Positions 1 through 29,967 of a DNA stretch of 33,846 nt are shown in pieces (within the stretch, counting starts at the first letter, position 1; every line of letters starts with the position of its first letter). The notes below the pieces were generated by a model. That model ran no database searches. It had not been told where the DNA came from and saw only the letters and a list, made by a program, of their open reading frames with translations. The position numbers and the translations under genes are program-made. The stretch lies in IMG/VR virus record IMGVR_UViG_3300048042_000021, positions 1 to 33,846 of that record; one strand, written 5' to 3'. Origin of the DNA: a virus.

Positions 1-3000
1 ATTCATTGGATACAAACTTGTGTTACCTTTATTATATTGTGCAGGATCTATTGTGCTTTTGTAATCTAATCCTACATTGGCAATACCTGGAATATATCCT
101 TTTACAGGATCAAAATAATCTAAAGTGACCAACATATTAAGAGTTGTCTTACTATATAATTTAGCCCATAGCATTAATGACGGCTCAACTTTAAGATTTT
201 CAGATCTTATACTTATCCAAGTTCCTTTATACATTTGGTAAACATTCCAACCATTTATACCAACATCACCCAAATCAACATAAGCTTTATCACCATCTAT
301 CCATCCACCAACCGGAGGATTATCATCACGTAACGTTACGTTACCAAATCTGATTCTACGATACGCATATATATTTCCGCCCGATCCTGCTATAAAAGTA
401 GTCGTCGGAACTGTAAACGTTGTACCAGTTTGGTTAACGTTTGATATTACAACTGTTTGATTATTCAATACACTTGCATTAGATATTCCGACTAATGTTA
501 CAAGATCGCCATTAACTAAATCATGTGGGCTTTTACAAGCTATAAGCGTTGGTGAACCAGGATTACTTGTGGCGACTGTATAATCTATTTGTGCAGGACT
601 TAATGTAAATTCCCAAATAGTCCATACTGTAGCAGAATCTATAAACTGCCAGATAGTGTCACGATCTTGTATTTGTACATTAGATATATTATTAAATTGA
701 TTTTGCACGTTTGTACTATACAAATTAGTTAATACTGTTATGTTCGCAACTAACCAATCTGGTTCACCAAGTTCAACATAACCTGCAGTTGGAAGGTCAG
801 TATTGAAATTTGCCCCATAATATGTACGCAATGCAAATCTATTACTAGTCCAGGTGGTTGGAGGTATAATAAATCGTGGGTCACCTTGTATGAATTCAAT
901 TATACCGTTAATTTCTCTATCACTATTCATATCACCGAATAGAGCTATTTGTTGTGGATCATTAACGAATTGATGTTGCACTAATATGAAATCAATATTA
1001 GTGTTAAGCGCCGAAGCGCCATATCTACCAATTCTTAATGCAAATTCTTCAAAATATTCAAAAGTTTCTTCTGCTGGTATTATCGCAGTGTTTCTTGTTA
1101 TTGCATTAATTGCAGAAGTTGTTCCTTTTTGTCTAATAAAACCTTGATAAAATTGAAATTCAGTACTGTCCTCATATATTAAATCTTCGAGGTAAGTTCT
1201 CTGTTGATAACCAAATAAATGTTTAGCTAAATCAGATATATCACTTCTATCTATAACACTATTTTGTGATGTTAATGTAGTTACATTTCCATTTAATGGG
1301 TTCAATCCATCAAAATTCTTGGGTTGATCAATATTAAAATATTTTCTAAAATCATTAGTTGTCTTTTCAAAATTTGATATCATTGCCCATGTATTATCTA
1401 CAGGATTTTGATACAAGAAATATCCAGGAACATCAAGTCTGCCAGTCCAATCATTTGTACGATATGCATAAATTTTCAATCTAGGTTGTGCTAAATTATA
1501 TAAATCATCATATATAGTGTCTCCAAAACTTGTTTGATTATCAAATACTATAACATGTTCCAATGTTGTAGTAAACAATCGTAGACCATATACAGCTTGA
1601 GTATTAAGTGATTGTACAGTTATCTCACCATCATATCTTAATATTTCTAAGTTATAAGTATTAATTGGGAACCCTGCACGATCTACTATAGGGTATGTAC
1701 CACCTATAATACCATTTATAAATTCAATATTACCAAATTCTTGATGATATTTTACAGCATTTGCCAACGGACTTATAGATATAAAGTTACCATTTGCCCA
1801 TTGTACCTGTGACCAATATATAAAGTCTGCAGCACCTTGACCCCAATTAGCTATATTATTGCCAGCAGCATTATATTCATCAAATATCCAGCCTTGATTT
1901 TCTTGAAATCTACCGATACTTATTAAGAAGTCATAAACTAATTGTTGCGTAGCAAATATAGTTCCGTATGGCACAGATTGTATTATAGGCTGACCATTAC
2001 TTGTCATACCTTTAAGGTATCTTATAACATTTACATTTCCTAGTGTTGCCGTTACTTTACCTCCAGTTATACTACTAGGTATTATATAAAATTGTTGTTC
2101 TATAGCATCATAACCATATACCTGCCACCCACCACTTACTTGTTTAATTATAGCACCACCATAAAATACAGTTCCTGTACTTGTACTTCTATATAGATAC
2201 ACATTTACGTTTTCACTAGGAACAAGATTAGTCTTATAACCTATCACACCAAAACTGTCAACTGTTACTCTCAGATCAGTATTACTATTAATATAAGCCC
2301 CAACTCTATGTGCAAGTTTTGGTAAACATCCTCGTACGATATTACCAAAATAATTTGTAATGTTTATACTTTGACTTATTAAATATTCACTTATCCAGTG
2401 CTGTATACCACCACTTTGATAATAAGTCAGATTTGTTTCATTTGGTATAGTTAGCCCCTGACCAATAGTTGACGGATTTTCACGTTGTACGTAAAATTGA
2501 TCACTTCCTCGTCTGCTATTAGTATCAAGATATATCCATTGGTCACCTGTTGTGCCAGCAAATAGTTGTTCAGTTCGTAATGTATCCCAGCAATATTCAA
2601 TGAATTGTGCAGGCTTCATTAAATATCCAAGTTGTGCTAACACAAAGTTATATTCTTGACTATGTACCCAAACTGATTCAATTGGACCACCATCACCAAA
2701 TACCCATTCTGCTCTGGCTTGATATACAGTTGGTAGCGATTGAACTGTACCAGCGGCATTTGGAGGTAACAAATTACCTTGGTCATCAGCTGGTATACAA
2801 TTTAATAATCCTGGTCTTGCCCAAACTGTATATGTTCCTTGTCGTGAACCTTGGCGAATGATACCATTCGCAAGATCATTCCACATATAAGTGTTACCAT
2901 TTGTATAAGGTGCAGCTCCATATTCTGTAGTCCACCAAGTAGGCTGCTGACTAAATCCAAGCATCTCCCAAGGACATATATTTGGTCTATCTGTATCATA

Positions 3001-5925
3001 AAACCATCTATATATTCCGCGCCAGTTTCCTGGGACAAATTGACCTTGCTGATCTAGTTGATTGCTATAATTCCAAGAAAATTGATCATTTAAATCAAAG
3101 GTAGTATTTGCAGCGTAATCGACCTGATTAGAAATATTCCATTTATCAAACATAGGTTGCAAAATTGCAAGAAACTCTGCTTGAGAATAACCATTAGTTC
3201 TCCATTTACCAGGTATAAAGGTTCTAATATCAAATACCAATGGCGATTCTGGTTGACTATATGCAATTGGCATATTATCAAATAGATTCAATTCAAACTG
3301 TAACCATGCCCTTGCAAGTCCATTACTAAGCAATATAGGACTTTGAGTAGTCACGTATCCACCTAATATTGTTCCTAATGGGTTACCATCATTGTCTTCC
3401 ATAACAATACGACTACCATCATGTGTCTGTATAACAAGATTTTCACCTATGTAATATACAGTTGGCTGATACGCAGGAGTTACACCCAATCTTGTTGCAG
3501 TGGGCGGTATATAATTAGGTGTAGCTGATTGTTGGAAAGTATACCCACCTTGTGTATTACTATAACCACTACTTGACCAAGGACTACTTAAAGTCTTACC
3601 TACATTAACTTGTTTAAGAGCTGCTGTTAGCCAATCAGTTACGGCATTATTAACTGAATAACCATTATTATACAAGTTGAATAGAGCTCTAATAAATTTA
3701 CTATAAAATCTAGTATATTCTCTTTGTGCAAATTGTATCGCCGTTAAAGGATTAGTGTTACTTATTGTTGTGGTAGGTCCGGTAGCTACGTTACTACTGT
3801 TCAATATCATCATCTTAAGCATTGGTGCTCGATGTTGAAGTATAGTTTGTCCCAAACTTAAATCTTTATAAGTATCTCTATAATTGTTATCTCCTAATCC
3901 AACTCCTGTGAATCCATACTGATTTTGCATAATCTGTACGAAATGATCTATTAATTGTCCCTGACTAATAACAGTTATGTCTTTGTTATTTGGATTTGCT
4001 GTTAAGTTAGTTGGTAGTTCATAATAACCAGTTAATACCTTGGGTACTGAAGTACTCCAACTACTAATTGTTACTCTATCACTAGTTATTAATGTACCTG
4101 GCGCTATTACTACCTGAGGCTGGCTACTAATATTATTAACCGTAACTACATAATCAGTACCATTGACAAGTTGTGATTGTGTACCATTTCTGGTTAAAAT
4201 TACTATTATAGGTGGTAACTCTCCAATCACATAAGGCGCAGGTAATTGATCAATATTTAATGTAGTAGATATAATAGCAGAATTGATTTGCAAGTTCAAA
4301 TAATCATTTAAAATATACTGGCGGCTAGGTGCCGCCGCTTTATGCCAATCGTTATTGTAAGTAACTGAATTTGTTAGGACATTTGATATGATTTGGTAGA
4401 AAATATAACCAAGGTATGTTTGTTTAGTACCATTTAAAGTGTACCCAACAGAAGTAGATGTTAATCCATTATTAAACTGTAATGCCCCAAATGAATCTCG
4501 TTGCGCATTAATATTTAATACAGTATCAATTGGACTTGTTGCAGGATTATTGATATATGAAAATATCTGATTACCGGCAAAATTATTGTTTGGATATGTA
4601 ACAGGGTTGCTCAAACTTGTGCCTACTTCATTAAACAAATCAAACAATGGTGCCGATGTTAATGAATATTGCTGTCCCTGCCATCTCCAAATTCCATTAG
4701 CCGTAAACCAAAAATTGTATTCTTGATATACACCAAATTTAACATATACCCTATCACCATATGTCGGACTTCCATTTGGATTTTGACCATCTGCTGCAAT
4801 AGTTAATTCAATTGATTGTAATATATCTATTCCGGTAACAGTAAAAATTCTATTGTTTACATTTGATTTTGTGGTATCACCAGTTATCAAAATTCTCATA
4901 CCATCAGCTAAAGTAATACCATCATATACGTAAATTGATTTTCCTACTACTGTAGCAAATACATTTGAAATATTATACATAACAATATCAACTGGTGGTC
5001 TTCCATAGAATCCATAATCCCAAAGTGTAATATTAGGATTAATTTCGATAATAGGTCGTTGTGCCATTGCACTATAATAATCTAATAACGGTGTTTGTGA
5101 AAGAGTAATTACATCTATATGGTACCAACTATTGTCTAAACTCCATTGGTTTTGATCATTTGACCATCTGTTTATAGTTGTATACATGGGAGTAAACACG
5201 TTAGAATTACCATCCCAGCCTTCAAAATTCCACCCATAAATATCCCAAGCTGGATTTATTAACACTGGCCCAACATTTAATGTTATGTTCAATTCATTGA
5301 TATTAACTATATATTCAACACCGTTAATATTATAATCAACATCATTCATCAAAATTATTGCTAAACCTGTAGTAAACTGAAGAGACCCTATTACTATCTG
5401 ATTGGTACTGGTTAATAAGTAAGCACCTGTATATGTGTAGCTCTGTTGGCCAATAATATCAACTGCTGCATTTGTTTGGTTTAATAGCTGTATAGGACTA
5501 GGTCCTTGCGGAAGCCAAACATATCGAGTGTAATTTACTAATTTGTCAAGATCAATCGGTGGTGCCCAACTGTAATATTCTTGTTCAAATAATCTACTAT
5601 GATTATTAACGTTTGCCCCATCAAATGCTAATTGATTAATAATATCATCATAGAACATTATATTGTTTGTGAACCCAGATAAAACGTTATCACTGATAGC
5701 TGTAACAGGAAGTTGATAATTTGTTCTATCAATAGTTGGTTCGTTAACATAATAGTCAGTTGATGGATTATAATAACTTGGCTTACTTCCTATATATCCA
5801 GTTAAGAATTCAACACTTTCTGGCTGCATTAAATGGTCAACAGTAGCAGCAAAGAATTTCTTAAGAATAGGGGTCTGATTAATCTCAGGTAATAATTTTA
5901 TAATTCGTCTTTTAGTATCAACCAT
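1..5925 (-). CDS. Giant virion structural protein, probably baseplate-associated (3' end outside window)
   Basis: An uninterrupted minus-strand frame runs from an ATG at 5925 to the left edge, giving at least 1975 residues with no stop. The start overlaps the gp6 stop by 8 nt and has an upstream AGGA. The N-terminus reads [16 protein letters not shown], followed by segments such as EQEYYSWAPPIDLDKLVNYT and RYVWLPQGPSP. The protein is rich in Asn, Gln, Tyr and Trp, as large virion proteins often are. I recall similar very long structural proteins beside the baseplate genes in T4-like phages of aquatic bacteria, but cannot name a domain. In T4 the gene after gp6 is gp7, the baseplate wedge scaffold (about 1030 aa). 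This protein may hold that place but is far longer, so I do not assign gp7. It is probably co-transcribed with gp6. Virion role is likely; exact role is unknown. Confidence 0.8.
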   Translation of the reverse strand, partial: MVDTKRRIIKLLPEINQTPILKKFFAATVDHLMQPESVEFLTGYIGSKPSYYNPSTDYYVNEPTIDRTNYQLPVTAISDNVLSGFTNNIMFYDDIINQLAFDGANVNNHSRLFEQEYYSWAPPIDLDKLVNYTRYVWLPQGPSPIQLLNQTNAAVDIIGQQSYTYTGAYLLTSTNQIVIGSLQFTTGLAIILMNDVDYNINGVEYIVNINELNITLNVGPVLINPAWDIYGWNFEGWDGNSNVFTPMYTTINRWSNDQNQWSLDNSWYHIDVITLSQTPLLDYYSAMAQRPIIEINPNITLWDYGFYGRPPVDIVMYNISNVFATVVGKSIYVYDGITLADGMRILITGDTTKSNVNNRIFTVTGIDILQSIELTIAADGQNPNGSPTYGDRVYVKFGVYQEYNFWFTANGIWRWQGQQYSLTSAPLFDLFNEVGTSLSNPVTYPNNNFAGNQIFSYINNPATSPIDTVLNINAQRDSFGALQFNNGLTSTSVGYTLNGTKQTYLGYIFYQIISNVLTNSVTYNNDWHKAAAPSRQYILNDYLNLQINSAIISTTLNIDQLPAPYVIGELPPIIVILTRNGTQSQLVNGTDYVVTVNNISSQPQVVIAPGTLITSDRVTISSWSTSVPKVLTGYYELPTNLTANPNNKDITVISQGQLIDHFVQIMQNQYGFTGVGLGDNNYRDTYKDLSLGQTILQHRAPMLKMMILNSSNVATGPTTTISNTNPLTAIQFAQREYTRFYSKFIRALFNLYNNGYSVNNAVTDWLTAALKQVNVGKTLSSPWSSSGYSNTQGGYTFQQSATPNYIPPTATRLGVTPAYQPTVYYIGENLVIQTHDGSRIVMEDNDGNPLGTILGGYVTTQSPILLSNGLARAWLQFELNLFDNMPIAYSQPESPLVFDIRTFIPGKWRTNGYSQAEFLAILQPMFDKWNISNQVDYAANTTFDLNDQFSWNYSNQLDQQGQFVPGNWRGIYRWFYDTDRPNICPWEMLGFSQQPTWWTTEYGAAPYTNGNTYMWNDLANGIIRQGSRQGTYTVWARPGLLNCIPADDQGNLLPPNAAGTVQSLPTVYQARAEWVFGDGGPIESVWVHSQEYNFVLAQLGYLMKPAQFIEYCWDTLRTEQLFAGTTGDQWIYLDTNSRRGSDQFYVQRENPSTIGQGLTIPNETNLTYYQSGGIQHWISEYLISQSINITNYFGNIVRGCLPKLAHRVGAYINSNTDLRVTVDSFGVIGYKTNLVPSENVNVYLYRSTSTGTVFYGGAIIKQVSGGWQVYGYDAIEQQFYIIPSSITGGKVTATLGNVNVIRYLKGMTSNGQPIIQSVPYGTIFATQQLVYDFLISIGRFQENQGWIFDEYNAAGNNIANWGQGAADFIYWSQVQWANGNFISISPLANAVKYHQEFGNIEFINGIIGGTYPIVDRAGFPINTYNLEILRYDGEITVQSLNTQAVYGLRLFTTTLEHVIVFDNQTSFGDTIYDDLYNLAQPRLKIYAYRTNDWTGRLDVPGYFLYQNPVDNTWAMISNFEKTTNDFRKYFNIDQPKNFDGLNPLNGNVTTLTSQNSVIDRSDISDLAKHLFGYQQRTYLEDLIYEDSTEFQFYQGFIRQKGTTSAINAITRNTAIIPAEETFEYFEEFALRIGRYGASALNTNIDFILVQHQFVNDPQQIALFGDMNSDREINGIIEFIQGDPRFIIPPTTWTSNRFALRTYYGANFNTDLPTAGYVELGEPDWLVANITVLTNLYSTNVQNQFNNISNVQIQDRDTIWQFIDSATVWTIWEFTLSPAQIDYTVATSNPGSPTLIACKSPHDLVNGDLVTLVGISNASVLNNQTVVISNVNQTGTTFTVPTTTFIAGSGGNIYAYRRIRFGNVTLRDDNPPVGGWIDGDKAYVDLGDVGINGWNVYQMYKGTWISIRSENLKVEPSLMLWAKLYSKTTLNMLVTLDYFDPVKGYIPGIANVGLDYKSTIDPAQYNKGNTSLYPMN

Positions 5926-8900: not shown

Positions 8901-9298
8901 TCATATACGGTTTGATTAGTGACAATCTGTTGGATTTTCAAAAATCCAACAGATGTTAAACAACGCTGTGGTTGATAATTTAACATTTGAGCTAGTCTAA
9001 ATACACTTTCACGACGCTGTGCCGTATCTAAGAAATTTTCATGAGTATTCAAATCCATTCTTAGTGCTAAACTGGTACCAACATAACTCAAAAGTTCAAT
9101 GATAGAAACAAATTCACTACTCTCTATCCAGTCGTTAAAATCCTCGGGGTATGAAATCTGTATGTATGTTATTAACGCCGTACGTATAGTATTGAAATCA
9201 TATGCATTAAAATTAACGGTTGTAAATGCAGTATATAGAATTTGCCAATCTTCCGCACAAAAAAGTTGTTTTTGTCTTTGCTGAGCCGTTACAGTCAT
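5918..9298 (-). CDS. Baseplate wedge protein, gp6-like (J-like family)
   Basis: 1126 aa. In T4, gp6 forms the inner ring of the baseplate and joins wedges around the hub. The N-terminal 120 residues carry the family pattern: a region around [15 protein letters not shown], then [20 protein letters not shown] and [19 protein letters not shown], equivalent to the conserved 'LLAY...E.FL.TA..R..V...A...GY' stretch of gp6 and Mu J-like proteins. The length is well above T4 gp6 (660 aa); the extra part is Asn/Thr/Ser-rich. The start ATG at 9298 forms an ATGA overlap with the stop of the upstream GIY-YIG gene, and the GAGGG ribosome site lies in that gene's last codons. Position directly after gp25 and before a giant structural gene agrees with the T4 order 25-6-7. 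Family assignment is by pattern recognition, fairly secure; function of the extra length is unknown. Confidence 0.82.
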
Positions 9299-10203
9299 AT
9301 TATGCCCTCTTTAGTTTTATTTCTTTTAGTTTCTGAAATTTTACGTTTTATTTCATCTGACATAGGAGGTCTCTTTTTGGCTGCAATAGACAATTTTTCT
9401 CTATGTTCATTTGACATATTCATAGCACGTTCTGACATCTTTTTTCGAGTTTCTTCTGTTATTGGATCACGTTTAATAATTATTCCTTGTTCTCGTAAAT
9501 TATCATAAAAATTGCTAGTTGCATCAGATAATTTTTGCCTAGTTTCTCCTGATACTATTTTTCCTTTTAGAGCATTAGATATTTTTTTACGAGATTCTTC
9601 TGATAAAGGATGCTCATTGAATCTTTTTATTTGTGATTCAGACATTTTATTTCTAGACTCTTCAGAGAAGGCCCATCCATTGGCATGTCTGTTCTGTTGA
9701 GCTAAAGTCATTCTTGCTCGAACTTCTGGAGATCGTTTCTGACCTTTTGGTCGACGTAATTGTGCTTCAGAATATCGCTTTCGTGTTTCTTCAGATATGG
9801 GTGGTCGATTTTGTTGTCCTTTAGATATATTTTTTCTATATTCATCTGATCTAGGTGGTCGATTTCTAACAGCTTCGGCGATTCTTCTTTTAGTTTCTTC
9901 GGTATGTTTTAATCCAGTTGCGCCGTCACCACCATCTAATTTGTTTAATAAAATTCCTGCATCACTTCTTTTACCCCACCAACGTATCATTCTTCGTTCT
10001 AATGCTAACGCTCCAATTTCAGTTAAACCTGATTCTAATATAACAATATATTGTTTATCTTTTGGTATAGGAACATTATTATGTTTATCACTGAACATTC
10101 TTTTTCCTTTACCTTTACCAATATAATAAGGAGTACCTGCTTTAGCAGTTATTGAATCTTTATTTCTGATATATGCATATACATAAAATTCATTAATTAT
10201 CAT
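9295..10203 (-). CDS. GIY-YIG homing endonuclease with many NUMOD3-type repeats, inserted in the baseplate operon
   Basis: 302 aa. The GIY-YIG nuclease module is at residues 7-75: YVYAYIRN, then [11 protein letters not shown] (Tyr27, Gly29, Arg35) and a downstream Glu in ALALERRMI. From about residue 95 the protein is a run of about nine short repeats of the type 'S-E-E-T/S-R-K-K-I/M-S', the NUMOD3 DNA-binding pattern of phage homing endonucleases. It lies between gp25 and gp6, genes that are normally neighbours, with 9 nt to the gp25 stop and a 4-nt ATGA overlap with the gp6 start. An AAGG 7 nt before the ATG serves as ribosome site. There is no intron or intein around it, so this is a free-standing element, of the kind T4 calls seg genes. 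Its target is probably the homologous gp25-gp6 junction in related phages; that is inference. Confidence 0.88.
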
Positions 10204-15448: not shown

Positions 15449-15783
15449 TATAGATATCCTGACAACGATGTTCTGGTTGGAACATATATTGTTATTCCGG
15501 TAACAAAGTCCCAAATTGGATCTTTAATAATATTTGGATTTCTAAGCATAAAAACCCACCATAGTTGTGGAGTTCCATATAAACTGTAACTGAGAAGGTC
15601 GGCCCTATATTGATACATTGGGTCAAGGGTCATAAGAGTATCACTATTATTTGGTCTTACAAATACTTGGCTCCAGAAATCTAAATACGGTAAATTATCA
15701 ACATTAACCTGAGGCGTATTATAATAAGGACTGCTAGGCAAATAATTTGCTGATTGTATGGTTGTAATTGCTGAAGATGCCAT
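15448..15783 (-). CDS. Small baseplate wedge protein, gp53-like
   Basis: 111 aa from the ATG at 15783. An ATG three codons upstream (15792) directly abuts an AGGAGG, which is too close to use; the same AGGAGG is 9 nt from 15783, so the ribosome site decides the start. The core YRADLLSYSLYGTPQLWWVF, followed by LRNPNIIKDPIWDF and a C-terminal ITIYVPTR, is the pattern of gp53/LysM-like baseplate proteins ('R.D.ls...YG.....W......N.i.DP'). In T4, gp53 clamps neighbouring wedges together at the hub. The start overlaps the upstream stop (TAATG) and the stop overlaps the next start, so three genes are coupled in translation. Confidence 0.75.
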   Translation of the reverse strand: MASSAITTIQSANYLPSSPYYNTPQVNVDNLPYLDFWSQVFVRPNNSDTLMTLDPMYQYRADLLSYSLYGTPQLWWVFMLRNPNIIKDPIWDFVTGITIYVPTRTSLSGYL

Positions 15784-16544
15784 TAAATCCATCCTCCTTG
15801 AATTGATCCCGTTTGGCTCTGCGTCATTAATGCGCCTGATCTAAATTGGTCAAGATTAAATACCGTTCTTAATACACTCGGAGTATTTTGTACTGTTAAA
15901 CTGACAGAAATATTAAACAATGCCGGAAGCCAAACTGACCCCTTTTGGGTATCTAAATAGCTATTGTTACCACCTGATTGTACCACCGATGTAAACATTA
16001 ATGTTGTAGAAATTGCAGTAGCTCCTGACGTAGTTGACAAATACGCCGTATCAATAGGTACATAATCTACATCATTTGGAAATGTTACTCCAAAATTTGT
16101 TACGATAACTGGCAATTGATTAAACATATAATCACCATATGCATCAAACAATAATACAGGCGGAGGCGTTCCGGACGGTGCAGTAGTATTAGTAGCTTGT
16201 CCAAAATACATTTTAGTAACAGTTTGCAAAAAATGAATACATGCTACAGCATACACACCTTCTGTTTGATTTTGAACGCTAAATTGTCCATCTATAGTTA
16301 ATTTAACTGCATTAGTTCTTGTGTACGCATACATTTCTTGATTGGTATGTACCAAATCAATATTTGTATAAGAGACGTCTTGCGCATATGTAATGGTAGG
16401 CTGATATGGCCATACCATTCCATTGGTGGCTCGTAATGGATTAATTAATCCTGTTCCATACACTGTCGAAACTGCCGCCGGTTTAGCCCGTAATCTAACA
16501 CGTCTGGCATTAGCATCAGAATCATTACTTGAGAAACTACCCAT
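15783..16544 (-). CDS. Tail/baseplate structural protein, possibly tail-tube cap type
   Basis: 253 aa. First gene of the minus-strand baseplate operon, 27 nt downstream of a perfect TATAAATA late promoter, with AAAGGA before the ATG. Notable stretches are NGMVWPYQPTITYAQDVSYT, PPPVLLFDAYGDYMFNQLPV, VTNFGVTFPNDVDYVP and LFNISVSLTVQNTPSVLRTV near the end, followed by a Gly-rich tail ending GGWI. The pattern 'lfdaYG...nqlPviv.nf....P.dvDYvP......iP..f.i.l.l....s' is one I associate with tube-initiator or tube-cap-like proteins of T4-type myoviruses (gp48/gp54 position). That assignment is tentative. The neighbours make a tail or baseplate role likely. Confidence 0.65.
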   Translation of the reverse strand: MGSFSSNDSDANARRVRLRAKPAAVSTVYGTGLINPLRATNGMVWPYQPTITYAQDVSYTNIDLVHTNQEMYAYTRTNAVKLTIDGQFSVQNQTEGVYAVACIHFLQTVTKMYFGQATNTTAPSGTPPPVLLFDAYGDYMFNQLPVIVTNFGVTFPNDVDYVPIDTAYLSTTSGATAISTTLMFTSVVQSGGNNSYLDTQKGSVWLPALFNISVSLTVQNTPSVLRTVFNLDQFRSGALMTQSQTGSIQGGWI

Positions 16545-16571: not shown

Positions 16572-16579
16572 TATTTATA
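16572..16579 (-). promoter_or_regulatory. Late promoter (perfect TATAAATA) for the baseplate operon
   Basis: The minus strand reads TATAAATA, the exact T4 late consensus, 27 nt before the start codon at 16544. It sits in the divergent gap shared with the gp55 gene. Confidence 0.85.
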
Positions 16580-16612: not shown

Positions 16613-16640
16613 TTGACAATACATAGTTTTGTCATATATT
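16613..16640 (+). promoter_or_regulatory. Early (sigma70-type) promoter for gp55
   Basis: TTGACA at 16613-16618, 16-nt spacer, TATATT at 16635-16640. The predicted transcript start is about 30 nt before the chosen ATG at 16677. It diverges from the late promoter at 16572-16579. Confidence 0.72.
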
Positions 16641-16676
16641 ATAGTATTTTGCATGGATTTATCAAAAAGGATCATA

Positions 16677-18512
16677 ATGAACAAAAATTTACCTACTAAA
16701 ATAAAATATTTGACAAATAAAGACTTATTGGAAGAGATTCATTTAAGCAAATCGACTTATTGTGAATTTATTGATCCTAAATACAGTAACTATGATATAA
16801 TAGTTGATAATTTAGGTAAAGTGACACAAGATTTATTAAATGATGTTCGCAAGCGTAAAGTAACACAAGAAACAATACGACGCAAAAAAGAAATGATATC
16901 AAAAGGTATTAAAAATCCAGTAATTAATTTTACATTAGATGATATACCTCAAGAAAATATAGTAATCAGACTAATGACTTTTGACCATATCCCTATTAAT
17001 GAGGAGCGAATTCATAAAGCTAAGACCGAAGCAGAAAAGCATATAAAATGTAATTTTCCTCCTTTTCAACATTTTATAATAAAAGAAGGTGAATTCTATA
17101 TTGTAGGAAAAAGTCATTGGCAAGGCGGTATAGAAAACGGATGGTTTAATATTGAGCACGGAAAAATGACAAATAGATTAGCTCTTATGTTTATGAAATT
17201 AGTAGAAAGATACGGTCATAGAGGGAATTGGAGAGGGTATTGTGTAGATGAAACCACCGAAGCATTAACCCAACGCGGTTGGCTAGGAATTGATGATATA
17301 AACGAGACAGATATTATTTTATCATATGATGAAGGTAATCTGAAATGGTCTAAGATTAAATCTATATTTAGAGATCATTTTGACGGATTAATGCATAATC
17401 TCACTGTTACGGGTATGGATGCATTAATTACACCAAATCATAAATTAGTAACCGGTCGAGGACTTATTGAAGCTGAATATCTATTAGAATCAGATAAAGT
17501 CATTCTGATGGGTAATGAAATTCAGTCAGATTCGATTGAGATATATAATAATGACATTGTAGAATTATTAGGTTGGATAGTAACAGAAGGGTGTTATGAA
17601 TGGAATGAAGAACATAAAATAAAACGAATCACAATATATCAAAATCCGGGAGATAGTGCAGATAGAATCAGAAGCCGTTTAACTAACTTAAATTTTAAAT
17701 TCAGTGAATCACTACGATTGAACAATATATGTTTTGCTATATCACGTCCGGATTCTAGAAAAATTATAGAAATATTACCTACAAAAAACCTAAATATGAA
17801 TTTTCTACTTTCATTAACTGCTAATCAACGAAATATGTTAGTTAACACTATGATAGATGGTGACGGATGGAGAGTAGGTAACTATCGTCGATATACTCAA
17901 AAAAATAAAGAATGTGTAGATATGTTTCAAATTTTATGCACCATGTCTGGTATTAAAACCAATAGCCATTATATACAAAATCATAAATCATTTGGAAAAC
18001 TTACTAGTTACTATAATATTAATTTGTTTTCAAAGAGAAGAAATAATACTAAAGTAGAATGCATAGACTTTCATGGAGGTAAAAGAAATGGTAAAGGTCT
18101 CATTGGACGTGGAAAAATAACTCATCCAAATGAGCCAACTACTTATTACAATGGAATGGTATGGTGTCCTGAAACTGAATATGGGTGTTTCATTGCCAGA
18201 AGAAATGGAAAAGTGTACTTAACTGGAAATACATATCTAGACGAAATGAAAAATCAAGCATTATTACAGCTGAGTCAAATAGGTTTACAATTTGATGAGA
18301 GTAGAAGTGCTCAACCAAATCCATTCTCATATTATACACAAGTATTAGCAAATAGTTTTACAAGAGTATTAAACATAGAAAAGAAAAATCAAAATATTCG
18401 AGATGATTTATTAACTATGCACGGGGCAAACCCATCGTATACAAGGACAACAGACAATGAGATTGCAGCTAAAAAGTTAGCAGATACAGTCGTAAAACCG
18501 CCAGAAGCGTAA
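16677..18512 (+). CDS. 55: Late-transcription sigma factor gp55, interrupted by an intein
   Basis: 611 aa precursor; 281 aa after splicing. gp55 binds host RNA polymerase, replaces the host sigma factor and reads TATAAATA late promoters. The extein reads through the splice joint as GHRGNWRGY|TYLDEMKNQALLQ, then PFSYYTQVLANSFTRVLN and EKKNQNIRDDLL, the sigma region 2 pattern of T4-type gp55. The N-extein (188 aa) is long compared with T4 gp55 (185 aa in all). The ATG at 16677 is chosen because AAAGGA lies 5 nt upstream; the frame is open to a TTG at 16629, but that falls inside the promoter, and the ATG at 16653 has no ribosome site. Downstream come gp47 and gp46, as in T4. No partner gp33 is seen in this window. 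Confidence 0.9.
   Translation: MNKNLPTKIKYLTNKDLLEEIHLSKSTYCEFIDPKYSNYDIIVDNLGKVTQDLLNDVRKRKVTQETIRRKKEMISKGIKNPVINFTLDDIPQENIVIRLMTFDHIPINEERIHKAKTEAEKHIKCNFPPFQHFIIKEGEFYIVGKSHWQGGIENGWFNIEHGKMTNRLALMFMKLVERYGHRGNWRGYCVDETTEALTQRGWLGIDDINETDIILSYDEGNLKWSKIKSIFRDHFDGLMHNLTVTGMDALITPNHKLVTGRGLIEAEYLLESDKVILMGNEIQSDSIEIYNNDIVELLGWIVTEGCYEWNEEHKIKRITIYQNPGDSADRIRSRLTNLNFKFSESLRLNNICFAISRPDSRKIIEILPTKNLNMNFLLSLTANQRNMLVNTMIDGDGWRVGNYRRYTQKNKECVDMFQILCTMSGIKTNSHYIQNHKSFGKLTSYYNINLFSKRRNNTKVECIDFHGGKRNGKGLIGRGKITHPNEPTTYYNGMVWCPETEYGCFIARRNGKVYLTGNTYLDEMKNQALLQLSQIGLQFDESRSAQPNPFSYYTQVLANSFTRVLNIEKKNQNIRDDLLTMHGANPSYTRTTDNEIAAKKLADTVVKPPEA
17241..18230 (+). mobile_element. Intein with LAGLIDADG endonuclease inside gp55
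   Basis: 330 aa in frame, from Cys1 (CVDETTEALTQRGWLGI, block A) to a terminal Asn (NGKVYLTGN) followed by Thr of the extein. Block B is seen as LTVTGMDALITPNHKLVTG, with the TPNH motif. The two LAGLIDADG helices are LLGWIVTEGCYEW and MLVNTMIDGDGWRV, so the homing nuclease looks complete, with an acidic residue in each. The C-terminal block is YGCFIARRNGKVYLTGN; the penultimate residue is Gly rather than His, a variant common in phage inteins. Splicing would join Tyr to Thr in the conserved GY/TYLDEM of sigma region 2. The frame is intact on both sides. Confidence 0.93.
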
Positions 18513-18679: not shown

Positions 18680-19639
18680 ATGGGAAAAACAATAAAATCT
18701 AAAGATGAGTATTCTATTGATGAAATGGTATATAGATTTCTAAATCTCAAAATAGTTAAAGGTATTATAGAAACTAAAATGGTATCTAAATACAATATAG
18801 AATTGTTACAAGATTTTTTTAGGGTATTCCCATATTTTAAATGTTATGATCAAATTTGTCAAAATTTAGCATATTTTATAAAATATGACCTAGATGAATT
18901 TTATGTAAGACTAATAAAATTACGTGATATACAAAGAAATTCAGTAGATTGGCACATTATTCAATTTGGTGAAATAGGTATTCAAATTTTTCAAACAAAA
19001 TATATTATTAATTCTAATTTAAAATCAAAATTACCAGGATATAGAACCAGTAAAGCAGCTATTAAATTGTTTATTGAAATTGATAAAATATTAATTGATA
19101 TAAACCTCAATGTTAGACCAATTTATTATAATAACGATAAATGTAATGAATTCAGAATTAAAAATGATTATGGAAAATGGGTATGTTTTGATTATACTAT
19201 TAAAGAACTTAATTTGATAATTGAATATCATGGCGAACATTGTCATCCAAATATTAATTTATCATTAAACGATTGGAATAATTGGAAACATTATTTTTCA
19301 AAAGAATCAGCTGATATAGTATTTGATAGAGATATAAAACATAAAAAATTAGCTGAAAGTAAAGGTTTTAAATATGTCGTATTATGGCATTCAACTAGAA
19401 TCAAAGATAATTTAAATTACATTAAATCTATATTATTAAATCAACCTATAGATGAATCTAAAATTCATAAAAAAGCTGTCTTTATAATATCTAATGAAAA
19501 TAATTTAGAAGAACAATTCTATTGCGCAAATGATCTTAAAAAGAAATACAATATATCTAAATATTATTTTGATAAAATTTTAAATAAAGGGTTAATCTAT
19601 AATGGATTCAAAATTAATAAAATATACAAATCAATTTGA
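18680..19639 (+). CDS. VSR-like (PD-(D/E)XK fold) endonuclease, probable free-standing homing nuclease
   Basis: 319 aa. The catalytic region is at about residues 168-235: WVCFDYTIKELNLIIEYHG (Glu182), EHCHPN, then a Trp-rich segment and DRDIKHKKLAESKGFKYVVLW, which matches the VSR/DUF559-type core (beta strand with Asp/Glu, followed by 'D..K...a...G...v.W'). The C-terminal 60 residues, with EEQFYCANDLKKKYNISKYY, look like a small helix-turn-helix. The N-terminal 100 residues have no recognised domain. The gene is very AT-rich and its last 38 nt overlap the gp47 start. It sits between gp55 and gp47, where T4 has other genes including 49. The ribosome site is weak. Homing function is inferred from the fold and the phage setting. 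Confidence 0.75.
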   Translation: MGKTIKSKDEYSIDEMVYRFLNLKIVKGIIETKMVSKYNIELLQDFFRVFPYFKCYDQICQNLAYFIKYDLDEFYVRLIKLRDIQRNSVDWHIIQFGEIGIQIFQTKYIINSNLKSKLPGYRTSKAAIKLFIEIDKILIDINLNVRPIYYNNDKCNEFRIKNDYGKWVCFDYTIKELNLIIEYHGEHCHPNINLSLNDWNNWKHYFSKESADIVFDRDIKHKKLAESKGFKYVVLWHSTRIKDNLNYIKSILLNQPIDESKIHKKAVFIISNENNLEEQFYCANDLKKKYNISKYYFDKILNKGLIYNGFKINKIYKSI

Positions 19640-22430: not shown

Positions 22431-23510
22431 TTAAACGGGTTTCAATTTACATTTATCAAAATGATATCTATACATATTATTAGATCCACCAATTTTACCA
22501 CAGTGTGGACATTCTATTTTTGATTTTTTAACACCTTTCATGCCTGCAGACATATTCTTTTTAATTTCATCTGTTACAATTCTACCTTTACCTCCTTTTG
22601 ATATATTATCTTTCCATTGCTGTTTTTCTTCTTCGGTCATTTTATAATGGCATGGTTTACCATACATTCCATTTTCTTCACCTTTGTGGGCCATTTTAGA
22701 TCTAACTATATCCATTTCTTCTTTGGTTAACTTATCAAATGGTTTTTTACCATATCTCGGATTATTCTCACCAGACATACGCAAAGATATTTGTTCTATT
22801 AACTCTTTATATTCTTCTGACGTTAAATTATCAAATGGTTTTTTACCATATCTCGGAGATAGGTTTCCGATTCTTCCGTACATAGGATTATTTTCTCCTC
22901 TAAAATAGTCATCTAAATATTGCTGATATTCTTCTGGTGTTTTATTTCGTATAGTCGAATTATTATTACCAAATCGATATTTTATTTTATATTGTTCTTT
23001 TTCTTCGGGTGTCATACCATGTTCCCAACAAAAATTTTCATTCGGGTATATGTCTTTTATTAATGCAAATATTCTAACTGCTTCTTCGTCTATAGTCTCA
23101 TGTGGCGGTAAAAATTTAATTGGTGGTATTACCTTATTATAATATTTTCTAATCGAATCAGATAATTTAACTCGTAATGCATCTTCTACTATTAATTTTT
23201 CAACTTCTGCATAGGTTAGAGATGCCTTAGTAGCATGTAATGATTCAATAAAAAATTGAAATCTATCTTTTCCAAATTCTTTAATAAGTTTGTTTATTTC
23301 ATCTGATGAACTTGTGTATTTTTTCCAGTTAGATTCTTTCGTCTTCCATGCTCTATTTTTTCTTCCAGTAATAGCTTTACTAGTTTTTGTAAAAAATTGT
23401 TTTTTACCTATATATTCCCTATTAGTAACCGTGTCAATTATCCTATATACAAATCCAAACCAATTATTTATATTAAAATCGTTAGGGTATATCCAATGAC
23501 CATTATCCAT
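22431..23510 (-). CDS. GIY-YIG homing endonuclease with C-terminal zinc finger
   Basis: 359 aa. The nuclease module is at the N-terminus: FGFVYRIID (18-26) and REYIGKKQFF (31-40). The middle holds three copies of a 'G-E-N-N/G-P/G-x-Y-G-K-K-P-F-D-x-L-T-x-E-E' repeat, a NUMOD3-type DNA-binding pattern. The C-terminus is a zinc finger with Cys334, Cys337, His350 and Cys354 (spacing C-x2-C-x12-H-x3-C), the same spacing as in the HNH protein at 29116-29967. The gene is convergent with gp46, 6 nt apart. It has its own late promoter (23541-23548) and an AGGAATTATT ribosome site, so it should be expressed late. It is free-standing; the target is unknown. Confidence 0.88.
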   Translation of the reverse strand: MDNGHWIYPNDFNINNWFGFVYRIIDTVTNREYIGKKQFFTKTSKAITGRKNRAWKTKESNWKKYTSSSDEINKLIKEFGKDRFQFFIESLHATKASLTYAEVEKLIVEDALRVKLSDSIRKYYNKVIPPIKFLPPHETIDEEAVRIFALIKDIYPNENFCWEHGMTPEEKEQYKIKYRFGNNNSTIRNKTPEEYQQYLDDYFRGENNPMYGRIGNLSPRYGKKPFDNLTSEEYKELIEQISLRMSGENNPRYGKKPFDKLTKEEMDIVRSKMAHKGEENGMYGKPCHYKMTEEEKQQWKDNISKGGKGRIVTDEIKKNMSAGMKGVKKSKIECPHCGKIGGSNNMYRYHFDKCKLKPV

Positions 23511-23521
23511 AATAATTCCTA

Positions 23522-23566
23522 TCTAAATAAGCTCCCCATATATTTATACTCAGAAGCTTATTTAGA
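23522..23566. repeat. 12-bp perfect inverted repeat flanking a late promoter
   Basis: Arms TCTAAATAAGCT (23522-23533) and AGCTTATTTAGA (23555-23566) are exact reverse complements with a 21-nt gap. The late -10 element at 23541-23548 lies in the gap, so this has the form of an operator pair around the promoter. Confidence 0.8.
23541..23548 (-). promoter_or_regulatory. Late promoter (perfect TATAAATA) for the GIY-YIG gene
   Basis: The minus strand reads TATAAATA, ending 30 nt before the start codon at 23510. Confidence 0.75.
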
Positions 23567-25553: not shown

Positions 25554-28500
25554 TTAATAAACACGTCCACTCTGCTTCTTCACTGCATTGACTATATCAC
25601 TTGTAGAACTATTTGTAGTATGACCTAGAGCTTCGAGCTTATAATTTATCATCTGAAGTAATTCTATCATTGACGCATTTGAACTTCTTTGATTATCATA
25701 AAAATCAATTGTTATCTTTTGTAAGTCACTTGGACTCAACAGCTTAGCACCGCCTTTATTAGTTGCAACTGACGGGTTAGCTAGTTCTTGCGCATTTGCA
25801 GCTAAATCTCCCACACTTTTAGCTAGTTCTTCAATCATTGACGATGTGGTAATTTTTCCAGAAAATAAAGTGTCTTGTTTAGAAGTATATAATAAATTTG
25901 ATAGATTGGTTAAGGTATCATTTACTGACGCATCTATTTTGGCTGAGTTCAATGAACTAATCGCACTATTAAATGCAGTACTAAAAGTAGACAATGATGG
26001 CGTTATTTGATTTAATTTATCAGCTATATTAACTGACCCTAAACTATCACCTAATTCTGTAATTTTACTCGCGATAGTCGTTTTACCACTAAACATCCCA
26101 GTCTTAATATCAGTGTATAAAATACCAGCTAAGTTTGTGATTGTTTTAATAATTGCATCGGTATTGATATTAGCACTATTAGCACTTATTAATGAATCCG
26201 TAACAGTTTTAAATGCAGTACTAAACATTGTTAATGCTGGGGTTACTTTAGTTAACGGATCAGTAAGGGTTTCGAATTTTTTAAGTTGATTAACTGAATC
26301 ATCACCCTCTACCTTAGGAGTCTCTACATTTGGTTTTGGTGGTTGTTGACGTTGTTCGTCCTCAGGTGAGGTTTCGCCCAATAAACCACCAAGACCTTTG
26401 ACCATCTTACCTATTGCTGTATGTTCACGGAAATTGTGTACTGCACCTAATACAGCATCAGGTAAGATCTTATTGCCAACAGCACTGATTCCTTCACCTA
26501 TAAATTTGCCTGCTATGACAGCTAATCCTGCTTCTCCAGCAACCTTAGCAACTGTTCCGAGGCCGCCAACCTTGCTAAGCAATCCACCTGCTTTACTTGC
26601 TACACTTGCGGCTTTCTTTTCAGCTTCTGCTATTGCTTTACTTGCTGCTTTCTTTTCAGCTTCTGCTATTGCTTTACTTGCTGCTTTCTTTTCGGCTGCA
26701 CCTTCGACACCTGGCATACTGAAAGGTCTTGGAGATTCTGGACTGCTAAATGGGTTTAGAGAACCTGTAGACTTAATTGGCCTTGACGTTGATTGTGTAT
26801 CTTTTAAAAAGTCTTTAATCCCTTGTGGACGCAATCCCTTAAGAACCACACCACCAGTTAATTTATTTGCTACTGCTAATACTGCGGTTGATACTATTGC
26901 GGTTGTAGCAACTGATTTTAAATTTTCTTGAGTTAGGTTAGATTCTGATCCTGTTTTACCATACATTGCATCTGGATCTTGTTTACGAGTTTTTAAACCA
27001 AATGATATAAGTAACTCATCTATAGCATCTCCTAATGTAGTAAACAAATTAGCCAATGAATCAATTGGATGCGCAAGAGTTGTTAGTATATCTGAGAAAG
27101 CAACTGATACCTTAATAGCACCGTCTGCTAATTTTCCAAGAGCAGGTAGTGCAGGATTTAAGCTCTCTATTAAAAATCGATCAAATGAATTTTTTAAAGT
27201 ATTCTCTGCATCTATAGCTTTGTTTTGTGTATTTCGTAATTTAATAGCATCTTCATTTGCATCAGATGCCATTTTTGCACGTTCTCTTGCTTCAAGTTGC
27301 TCTCTAGTTAATCGTTTACCAGCTTCTTCATCACCTCTAGCAAGTCGTTTATTAACTTCTTCTTGAATTCTAGCTCCCGTTTCGTTTACATTCTGGGTAT
27401 CTTGCATAAATTTTATAGCTTTTCTAGCGGCATCACCAGCTATACCTTGTATCATCGCTTGCGAATGTAAACTTGCTGCGTATTCTTTAGCTTGTGGTGA
27501 ATTAGTTAGTTTACCTATACGTTCTTGATCAGCTTCAACTAGATCTGCAGCGTTAGCAGCGTTAGATTTCAAATCTATTGACAATTGGTCAAATGCCGGA
27601 GACAACCCATCTACACGAGTCATTAACAGTTGAAGACCACTATCTAATTTAGCTATGCCTGTACCCGCATATATACCAGTGAGAATTTTTTGTGCGTCGT
27701 CGGCAGAATCACCTAATGCACTTAAACTCTTTACATTCCGCCTAATAGCATCTTGCTCATTGGCAGATAAATTAGATATGGCTACGTTCATATCTAAATC
27801 CTTAGCTCTATCTTTTGCCTCCTTTTCTAAAGTTTTTCTATTTTTTCCAGTAATCGAAGATATCATATTCAATTCTTGAATATATTGTGCGGTGCCATCG
27901 GTTAGTTGTTTAGTAGTTTTACCTGATAGACCACCAGTTACCCTTAACATATCTGTAAATTCAAGTATAGAATCAATTGCATCCTGATTGGTTAATTGGA
28001 GAGCCCCGGTCTGTTCGTTTAATAATTTAAATGATTTACCTAGTCTGGTAACTTTATCAGTTCCTAAAAACGCTATATCTGCGCTATACTCTGTAAAAGA
28101 AGATACTAAATTATCCAATGATATTCCGAGGTCAGATGCTGTTTGCGTCATTCCTGCCAGACCATCAGAGAACCGAACACCTGAATCAAATAGTTTATAA
28201 TATTCGTTATTCAATTTCGTGACAATTTGATATGTTTCAAATACCCCGCCTGCTAATAACAATAACGGACCTGCTACGGTAAGTATACCTCCTAATAGAT
28301 CTTCAGATGCTGCACCTAATTTAGATAAACTGGCGGCCGCCGTACCTGAATGTTTAGCTAACATTCCAATTATACCAACGTCTCCGATATCTGATATTGC
28401 GCCATGAAGGCCTTTTAATGCACCACGTAAACTACCGTCTACTTTATCGAATCCATTTTTTACACCGAGGTTTAAGTCTTTAAATGCATCAGTATCGTTT

Positions 28501-28706
28501 TTACGTTTCTTTTTGTTTTGTTTAGCTTCGTCAAGAGCAATATCTAATTCTTTTTTTGCAAACTTGTTTGTTAATAATTTAAGATAATCATTTGCTTCTG
28601 TATCTTTTTCGAGAATTTCTTTGAGCGTAGTTTCCCTAGCCCATTTAGCTCCGGTGCTTTGCTCTTCTAGAATTATAACTTTTTGTGGTGGTACAACTGC
28701 TGCCAT
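25554..28706 (-). CDS. Tail tape measure protein
   Basis: 1050 aa. It sets tail length and is ejected ahead of the DNA. Evidence is the composition and layout: a charged helical N-terminus (KDTEANDYLKLLTNKFAKK), then a hydrophobic Gly/Ala/Leu-rich segment at about 140-165 (LLGGILTVAGPLLLLAGG), long helical stretches rich in Ala, Lys and Asp, an Ala/Glu/Lys tandem repeat, more hydrophobic Gly/Ala segments around 720-740, and a C-terminus of Ser/Thr/Ala repeats. It follows the gp26-like/frameshift pair, the standard position of tail chaperones. By the usual rule of about 0.15 nm per residue the tail would be near 150 nm. The start at 28706 lies 30 nt after a CATAAATA late promoter. No lysozyme or peptidase domain was recognised. 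Confidence 0.85.
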   Translation of the reverse strand: MAAVVPPQKVIILEEQSTGAKWARETTLKEILEKDTEANDYLKLLTNKFAKKELDIALDEAKQNKKKRKNDTDAFKDLNLGVKNGFDKVDGSLRGALKGLHGAISDIGDVGIIGMLAKHSGTAAASLSKLGAASEDLLGGILTVAGPLLLLAGGVFETYQIVTKLNNEYYKLFDSGVRFSDGLAGMTQTASDLGISLDNLVSSFTEYSADIAFLGTDKVTRLGKSFKLLNEQTGALQLTNQDAIDSILEFTDMLRVTGGLSGKTTKQLTDGTAQYIQELNMISSITGKNRKTLEKEAKDRAKDLDMNVAISNLSANEQDAIRRNVKSLSALGDSADDAQKILTGIYAGTGIAKLDSGLQLLMTRVDGLSPAFDQLSIDLKSNAANAADLVEADQERIGKLTNSPQAKEYAASLHSQAMIQGIAGDAARKAIKFMQDTQNVNETGARIQEEVNKRLARGDEEAGKRLTREQLEARERAKMASDANEDAIKLRNTQNKAIDAENTLKNSFDRFLIESLNPALPALGKLADGAIKVSVAFSDILTTLAHPIDSLANLFTTLGDAIDELLISFGLKTRKQDPDAMYGKTGSESNLTQENLKSVATTAIVSTAVLAVANKLTGGVVLKGLRPQGIKDFLKDTQSTSRPIKSTGSLNPFSSPESPRPFSMPGVEGAAEKKAASKAIAEAEKKAASKAIAEAEKKAASVASKAGGLLSKVGGLGTVAKVAGEAGLAVIAGKFIGEGISAVGNKILPDAVLGAVHNFREHTAIGKMVKGLGGLLGETSPEDEQRQQPPKPNVETPKVEGDDSVNQLKKFETLTDPLTKVTPALTMFSTAFKTVTDSLISANSANINTDAIIKTITNLAGILYTDIKTGMFSGKTTIASKITELGDSLGSVNIADKLNQITPSLSTFSTAFNSAISSLNSAKIDASVNDTLTNLSNLLYTSKQDTLFSGKITTSSMIEELAKSVGDLAANAQELANPSVATNKGGAKLLSPSDLQKITIDFYDNQRSSNASMIELLQMINYKLEALGHTTNSSTSDIVNAVKKQSGRVY
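26611..26697 (-). repeat. 36-bp in-frame tandem repeat in the tape measure gene
   Basis: Two exact 36-bp copies (26611-26646, 26647-26682) and a 15-bp partial third that differs at one base. They encode 12-residue units of the type EAEKKAASKAIA. Confidence 0.92.
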
Positions 28707-29115: not shown

Positions 29116-29967
29116 TTAGTGATTAATTTCTTCACAAACAATGTTTGATTTTTGTTTGAATTTACAATTATCAAAATGCCATTGGATCATAGCACCACCT
29201 TTACCAATTTTATCACAATGATGACATACATATTCTTGTTGAGATGGGTGTGTTCCATTTGCTACTCGTTCTAATGCGTGTTTTCTAGCTCTTTCAGAGC
29301 CACCATTTTCTTTTAATAAATGATGCGTTCTATTTGCAACTTTCTCATTTGCTAATTGCCTTAGATGCTCAATGTTTTCTTTATTTTGAGATGAATGCCT
29401 ACCTTCTGCTAATAGCTTTAAATTTCTTTCTTTAGACTTCTCACTACCTCCATTTTGTTTTAATGCATGAAATGTACCATTTTTTATTAATTCATGTACC
29501 GGATTTTTATCACCTTGTAAATTATGATCACCTCTAGCAACTCTTTTATTTTGTGCTTGTATCATTTTTTCAATAACTACCGGATTTTGAGATGGATGTC
29601 TACCTTCTGCTAGTAATTTTAATACTCTTTCTCTAGACTTCTCACTGCCACCATTTTGTTTTAATAAGTTATGAGTTCCGTCTGTTGATCTTTTTAAATT
29701 ACTCAATGTTGCTAATCTAGAAATATCTTCTGGTGATTTATTCATTCTAAATGCAATTAAGACGCATGCATACCAATCCATTTGTTCAAAATGAATATCG
29801 TAATGTTCTTGTATAGTAATAGCTTCTAAATTAATTGGATCATTATTTGAATGATTCCCATCTATGTGATGAATTTCATAAGTACGACCTGTTTCATCTA
29901 TAGGTATTTTACCTATATGATTCTCATATATTTTACGATGATTAGTAGTTCTACAATGATTGCACAT
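29116..29967 (-). CDS. HNH homing endonuclease with repeats and C-terminal zinc finger
   Basis: 283 aa. The HNH core is at 30-60: RTYEIHHIDGNHSNN (His33, His34, Asn41/42), DPINLEAIT and EHYDIHF, preceded by a CNHC pair at 2-5. Residues about 95-245 hold three copies of a repeat built around NGGSEKSRERVLKLLAEGR and HPSQN, interspersed with RVARGDHNLQ-like units, likely DNA-binding. The C-terminal zinc finger has Cys248, Cys251, His264, Cys268 with the same spacing as the GIY-YIG protein at 22431-23510. It lies between the tail-chaperone frames and the tape measure gene, normally adjacent. No ribosome site precedes the ATG, and the predicted transcript start is within a base of it, so translation may be leaderless. 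It ends 4 nt from the convergent membrane-protein gene. Confidence 0.87.
   Translation of the reverse strand: MCNHCRTTNHRKIYENHIGKIPIDETGRTYEIHHIDGNHSNNDPINLEAITIQEHYDIHFEQMDWYACVLIAFRMNKSPEDISRLATLSNLKRSTDGTHNLLKQNGGSEKSRERVLKLLAEGRHPSQNPVVIEKMIQAQNKRVARGDHNLQGDKNPVHELIKNGTFHALKQNGGSEKSKERNLKLLAEGRHSSQNKENIEHLRQLANEKVANRTHHLLKENGGSERARKHALERVANGTHPSQQEYVCHHCDKIGKGGAMIQWHFDNCKFKQKSNIVCEEINH

Follow-up and report, generated by a model that had tools for sequence, protein, structure and literature searches.

The viral DNA analysed here (the window, 33,846 nucleotides in length) contains a gene for gp55, the late sigma factor of T4-type phages, whose reading frame continues through 330 additional codons. 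This raises the question of what the insertion is, and whether it serves the phage as a regulatory switch or persists as a selfish element.

The interrupted gp55 gene

The gp55 gene with its insertion occupies positions 16677-18512 of the plus strand and encodes a precursor of 611 residues. Its parts are as follows:

16629-18512, plus strand: gp55 frame, open throughout, 627 residues counted from the TTG at 16629
16677, plus strand: likely ATG start of gp55, preceded by AAAGGA
16677-17240, plus strand: N-extein of gp55, 188 residues, ending in NWRGY, matched by phrog_12791
17241-18230, plus strand: class 1 intein of 330 residues with a LAGLIDADG homing endonuclease, gp55 site a, recognised from motifs, fold and relatives
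18231-18512, plus strand: C-extein of gp55, 93 residues from Thr+1, plus the stop codon, matched by phrog_234

The PHROG gp55 profiles flank the insertion on both sides, with phrog_12791 matching residues 22-208 of the 627-residue frame (8e-81) and phrog_234 matching residues 535-616 (8e-14), and leave precisely the middle of the frame uncovered. The first-pass annotation, which was made from the sequence alone, had placed a 330-residue intein in gp55 at 17241-18230. This is borne out by the profile matches to both exteins and by an intein at the same site in Synechococcus phage B23. The joined extein of 281 residues (188 + 93), which had also been proposed, aligns with intein-free gp55s of other virus contigs at 50-68% identity and without a gap across the junction, where all twelve intein-free relatives that were compared are ungapped. 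A search of NCBIfam matched neither the intein nor gp55.

A profile of intein-free gp55s matched T4 gp55 in PDB entry 7d7c with an E-value of 3.3e-7, and the glutamate equivalent to T4 E70 is invariant among the aligned gp55s. The precursor as modelled by AlphaFold (pLDDT 87) matched chain 7d7c_F across the intein, with a Z-score of 13.7 over 123 residues in the model range 11-595. When aligned with this chain, the extein is homologous to it in sigma region 2, and the homology extends to the helix that binds RNA polymerase. C-termini are variable within the gp55 family. The gene order gp55-gp47-gp46, with gp55 upstream, is shared by the window and phage B23. The comparisons of sequence profiles and predicted structure confirm the extein as gp55, a late sigma factor of the T4 type. 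The closest intein-free gp55s include one (65% identical) that is encoded by the phage contig L011 of 452,799 bases, and the window may therefore come from a jumbo phage.

Anatomy, class and insertion site of the intein

The insertion contains all of the elements that the first-pass annotation had listed, namely Cys1, the TPNH block, two LAGLIDADG motifs, and a terminal Gly-Asn followed by Thr. The following positions were assigned, together with their conservation among 75 full-length inteins from the same site:

17241-17243, plus strand: Cys1 (TGT), the first splicing nucleophile, in 75 of 75
17430-17441, plus strand: block B, TPNH, residues 64-67, with Thr in 74 and His in 75 of 75
17565-17591, plus strand: LAGLIDADG motif 1, LLGWIVTEG, residues 109-117, acidic E116 (Glu in 70 and Asp in 2 of 75)
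17850-17870, plus strand: LAGLIDADG motif 2, MIDGDGW, residues 204-210, acidic D208 (Asp in 72 of 75)
18162-18167, plus strand: block F, Trp308-Cys309, with Cys at F:4, invariant
18222-18230, plus strand: block G, Thr328-Gly329-Asn330 (last codon AAT), penultimate Gly in place of His

The codon of Thr+1 starts at 18231, and the +1 residue is threonine in 63 and serine in 17 of 80 inteins. Cys1, the histidine of block B, Trp308, Cys309, and Asn330 are invariant in all 75 full-length inteins. The penultimate residue is Gly329, as in 72 of the 75, and thus departs from the usual histidine. A penultimate histidine is usual in class 1 inteins, but it is not obligatory. A mycobacteriophage intein with a penultimate glycine splices well and is slowed by the change of this glycine to histidine (PMC5050341).

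The insertion is in frame, starts with Cys1, contains a TxxH block, ends with asparagine followed by threonine, has a Hint fold, and interrupts an otherwise continuous extein, as is characteristic of class 1 inteins. The Hint fold was matched to mini-inteins with Z-scores of 14-16, and the endonuclease fold was matched by Foldseek to I-DmoI with an E-value of 3.7e-7. The Pfam match to LAGLIDADG_3 is weak (E 0.0076, below the cut-off), whereas the match at the level of the fold is strong. The search of RNA families found nothing, and hence gave no sign of a group I intron. The triplet WCT of class 3 inteins (B:12, F:4, G:5) is matched only by Cys309 at F:4 and Thr328 at G:5, and position B:12 is occupied by Leu69. 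Class 3 is therefore ruled out by the presence of Cys1 and the absence of the tryptophan at B:12, despite the block F cysteine.

Comparisons with known inteins place the element within a familiar architecture. The best match of the fold of the whole intein (model residues 187-518) is to the TliVMA intein with its homing endonuclease (PDB 7qsu/7qss; Z 24.6, rmsd 4.0, 295 residues), which resides in an archaeal V-ATPase gene and is 20% identical. Phage class 1 inteins in portal, TerL, DNA polymerase I, DNA methylase, and ThyX genes (Gordonia phages Belphegor and GordDuk1, Mycobacterium phage Bobi, Corynebacterium phage P1201) share the architecture, the block F cysteine, the terminal SGN or TGN, and the LAGLIDADG domain, but they interrupt other host genes and are 22-28% identical to the gp55 intein. 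The Mvu TFIIB intein (PDB 5o9i; Hint fold Z 13.0) resembles it in that archaeal TFIIB inteins also reside in a transcription initiation factor; however, the gene is archaeal and cellular, and the insertion site and extein are unrelated. The class 3 DnaB-1 intein of M. smegmatis (PDB 6bs8) has the block F cysteine and the G-block threonine in common with the gp55 intein, but it lacks Cys1 and has a tryptophan at B:12, where the intein in the window has Cys1 and a leucine, respectively.

In the alignment with the T4 sequence, the insertion falls at the conserved Tyr|Thr junction corresponding to Tyr63 and Thr64 of T4 gp55, and the same numbering puts Glu, Asp, and Glu at positions 70, 74, and 77. 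E70, D74, and E77 of T4 gp55 contact the β′ clamp helices of RNA polymerase (PMC7892883), and the sigma-2 domain of T4 gp55 comprises residues 44-123 (PMC2988020). The insertion lies inside this domain and precedes the polymerase-binding helix by a few residues. Since the intein is positioned just before the helix that docks onto RNA polymerase, the unspliced precursor should be unable to bind the polymerase, and inactive until it is spliced.

Distribution and mobility of inteins at the gp55 site

The best 80 matches to the intein profile among virus contigs are all in gp55 and at the same junction. The combined scans identified 80 distinct inteins at this site for which both flanking sequences were available, and these belong to three deep groups of gp55. 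A further scan using divergent members found the site occupied in another branch of gp55. Intein-bearing junctions were found in 92 stretches, and intein-free ones in at least 120. All stages of the homing cycle are represented: besides full inteins and many empty sites, there are four mini-inteins and one intein with an eroded endonuclease. In the eroded endonuclease (L186), both LAGLIDADG motifs are degraded. The mini-inteins (L182, L227, L246, and L253), which are 147-167 residues long, have the endonuclease deleted and keep all splicing blocks; they may be of use as small splicing domains for engineering.

Among the cultured phages in the "phages" collection, only Synechococcus phage B23 carries a gp55 intein. 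Its gp289 (MN695335, QGT54902.1) has the intein at the identical site, running from Cys1 to TGN and 43% identical over its length, in a gene that is likewise upstream of gp47 and gp46. It differs from the window in its +1 serine in place of threonine and in its short, T4-like gp55. Gene 289 is annotated as "hypothetical protein; phage T4-like gp55", with the intein unmentioned. The first-pass annotation suggested that gp55 is not known as a host of inteins. This holds for the open-access full texts that were searched, in which no prior report was found, but not for public genomes, since that of B23 contains an unrecognised one. The intein itself is of a familiar type, and gp55 is a new host gene for it. 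The search of bacterial genomes yielded only matches with 25-28% identity in genes of anaerobic ribonucleotide reductase, and identified no cellular donor. These distant inteins (L167-L170), apparently in anaerobic ribonucleotide reductase genes, come from metagenome-assembled genomes of candidate-phyla bacteria and Micrarchaeota.

Three phage lineages carry, besides the first intein, a second one of about 320 residues, which is located in the C-extein before Cys-Phe, equivalent to T4 Asn104|Ala105:

L151 (also contig L472), 4150-5124: second gp55 intein
L154, 4135-5085: second gp55 intein
L438, downstream of the first intein: second gp55 intein, last residue Gln, not Asn

Relatives of the second intein interrupt ribonucleotide reductase and other genes, and it looks unrelated to the first.

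The presence of the intein on a tree of 206 gp55s requires at least 31 changes, 13 of which are forced by well-supported branches. In the pairs L242/L295 and L102/L300, the gp55 proteins are 96-97% identical, and one site is full whereas the other is empty; such pairs of occupied and empty sites show a clean insertion at the DNA level. The inteins of L130 and L131 are identical in 1002 of 1008 nucleotides (99.4%), whereas the 120 bases on each side are identical at only 89 and 93 positions (about 75%). Because the inteins are nearly identical and their flanks have diverged, the element must have moved recently. The pairs L092/L095 and L089/L090 exhibit the same pattern (about 90-93% versus about 70-77%). 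Conversely, the gp55s of L121 and L172 are 98% identical, and their inteins just 59%. The ratio dN/dS, calculated from close pairs with unsaturated dS only, ranges from 0.12 to 0.45 for the endonuclease part of the intein and from 0.04 to 0.15 for the splicing part. These ratios demonstrate, at the level of sequence comparison, that the intein is under purifying selection, and some lineages have lost the endonuclease. The patchy presence, the swaps, and the dN/dS values together are the signature expected of active homing with periodic decay, and the recent horizontal movement indirectly supports the cutting of the intein-free site by the endonuclease.

The junctions, motifs, and fold, together with the empty sites and the recent movement evident from the alignments, are best explained by an actively mobile selfish class 1 intein in the essential gp55 gene, a reading that we consider highly probable. 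The 611-residue precursor would be translated whole from the single frame. The Tyr-Cys bond would be attacked by Cys1, the N-extein would be transferred to Thr+1, and Asn330 would cyclise, so that splicing yields gp55 of 281 residues and a free intein of 330 residues. The freed intein is probably a site-specific endonuclease that may cut the intein-free gp55 genes of co-infecting phages, whose repair would copy the intein in. The intein probably persists because it occupies an essential stretch of conserved codons, from which imprecise loss would kill the phage, and not because the phage needs it.

The window encodes additional candidates for mobile elements and long frames of other kinds:

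9295-10203, 22431-23510, 29116-29967 and 32535-33746, minus strand: four predicted freestanding homing endonucleases (SegE-like GIY-YIG with NUMOD3, HNH, and others)
18680-19639, plus strand: ORF of 319 residues between gp55 and gp47, with a VSR/EDxHD-type nuclease-like motif IIEYHGEHCHPN and no confident family match
25554-28706, minus strand: ORF of 1050 residues without a PHROG match
1-5925, minus strand: open-ended frame of at least 1975 residues

The ORF at 18680-19639 is possibly a freestanding homing endonuclease. With four additional predicted homing endonucleases in 34 kb, the phage appears very endonuclease-rich.

Late promoters and the alternative explanations

Across related loci, the sequence TATAAATA occurs within 70 nucleotides upstream of ORFs 65 times in the sense and 3 times in the antisense orientation, and its density is 1.03 per kb upstream of ORFs versus 0.009 per kb inside them. 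The window as a whole shows no enrichment of TATAAATA, with 4 copies found and 11.5 expected by shuffling, and the signal emerges only once the location and orientation of the copies with respect to genes are taken into account. Two of the boxes in the window, and a sigma-70-like promoter, are placed upstream of genes:

16572-16579, minus strand: T4-type late promoter box TATAAATA, 28 nucleotides upstream of the divergent virion gene 15783-16544
23541-23548, minus strand: late promoter box TATAAATA, 31 nucleotides upstream of the SegE-like endonuclease gene
16613-16640, plus strand: sigma-70-like promoter TTGACA-16-TATATT upstream of gp55, a consensus match only, at 11 of 12 positions

The strong enrichment indicates that these phages use T4-type late promoters. 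The consensus matches fit early or middle expression of gp55 and late, gp55-dependent expression of the neighbouring virion gene. The box upstream of the SegE-like endonuclease gene suggests that it is also expressed late.

The position of the insertion before the polymerase-contacting helix makes splicing a precondition for late transcription. The intein could thus be a regulatory switch or timer whose slow or conditional splicing, made redox-dependent for example by Cys1 and the nearby Cys309 of block F, holds gp55 inactive until a set moment and delays the late programme. Cys309 is invariant, mini-inteins without an endonuclease persist at the site, and there are precedents in the redox-controlled DnaB intein (PMC6195587) and in a phage intein whose splicing rate is tuned by the penultimate residue (PMC5050341). 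Nevertheless, we consider this explanation unlikely. Many close relatives have no intein (the site is empty in a gp55 that is 97% identical), and this dispensability argues against a timer being required. Gp55s that are 98% identical carry inteins that are 59% identical, which means that the inteins were swapped. Late transcription of T4 is already coupled to replication via gp45 (PMC2988020), and the block F cysteine is common to portal, TerL, DNA polymerase, and methylase inteins, and so is not specific to gp55. The patchy occurrence of the intein on the gp55 tree and its jumps between divergent phages are the behaviour of a selfish homing element. The timer proposed in the first-pass annotation is compatible with the anatomy, yet unsupported, and a side effect of the intein on timing is possible. 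With correspondingly little confidence, we speculate that phages have partly domesticated the gp55 intein and use it as a post-translational gate on the late programme, in which the speed of splicing sets the arrival of active gp55. Such a gate would perhaps be redox-sensitive via Cys1 and Cys309, and the endonuclease-less mini-inteins would perhaps have been kept for gating.

It is very improbable that the intein no longer splices and that gp55 is supplied by another copy while the interrupted one decays. The window is a 33.8-kb fragment of the phage genome, and a second, uninterrupted gp55 could lie elsewhere; however, the splicing residues are all intact, the frame contains no stops, and the splicing regions of relatives are under strong purifying selection. 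Since 80 distinct alleles of an essential gene share this interruption, general inactivity is implausible. The probability that the intein by chance resides in some protein other than gp55, be it sigma-like or unrelated, is negligible: the protein is longer than T4 gp55 (281 versus 185 residues) and some of its N-terminal residues have no T4 counterpart, but the PHROG gp55 profiles match both halves, the exteins match the structure of T4 gp55, and the gene order and T4-type late promoters also speak against it.

With the mobile selfish intein as the preferred explanation, the genes that host inteins now include gp55, which acts as the master switch for late transcription in T4-type phages. A single viral gene offers a large natural series of alleles, which range from full and eroded inteins to mini-inteins, empty sites, and double occupation. 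The gp55 inteins, including the mini-inteins, are candidates for protein engineering. Since gp55 has a clean readout in transcription from TATAAATA, and phage B23 is cultured, a comparison of gp55 with and without the intein makes it possible to test whether viral inteins ever time gene expression.
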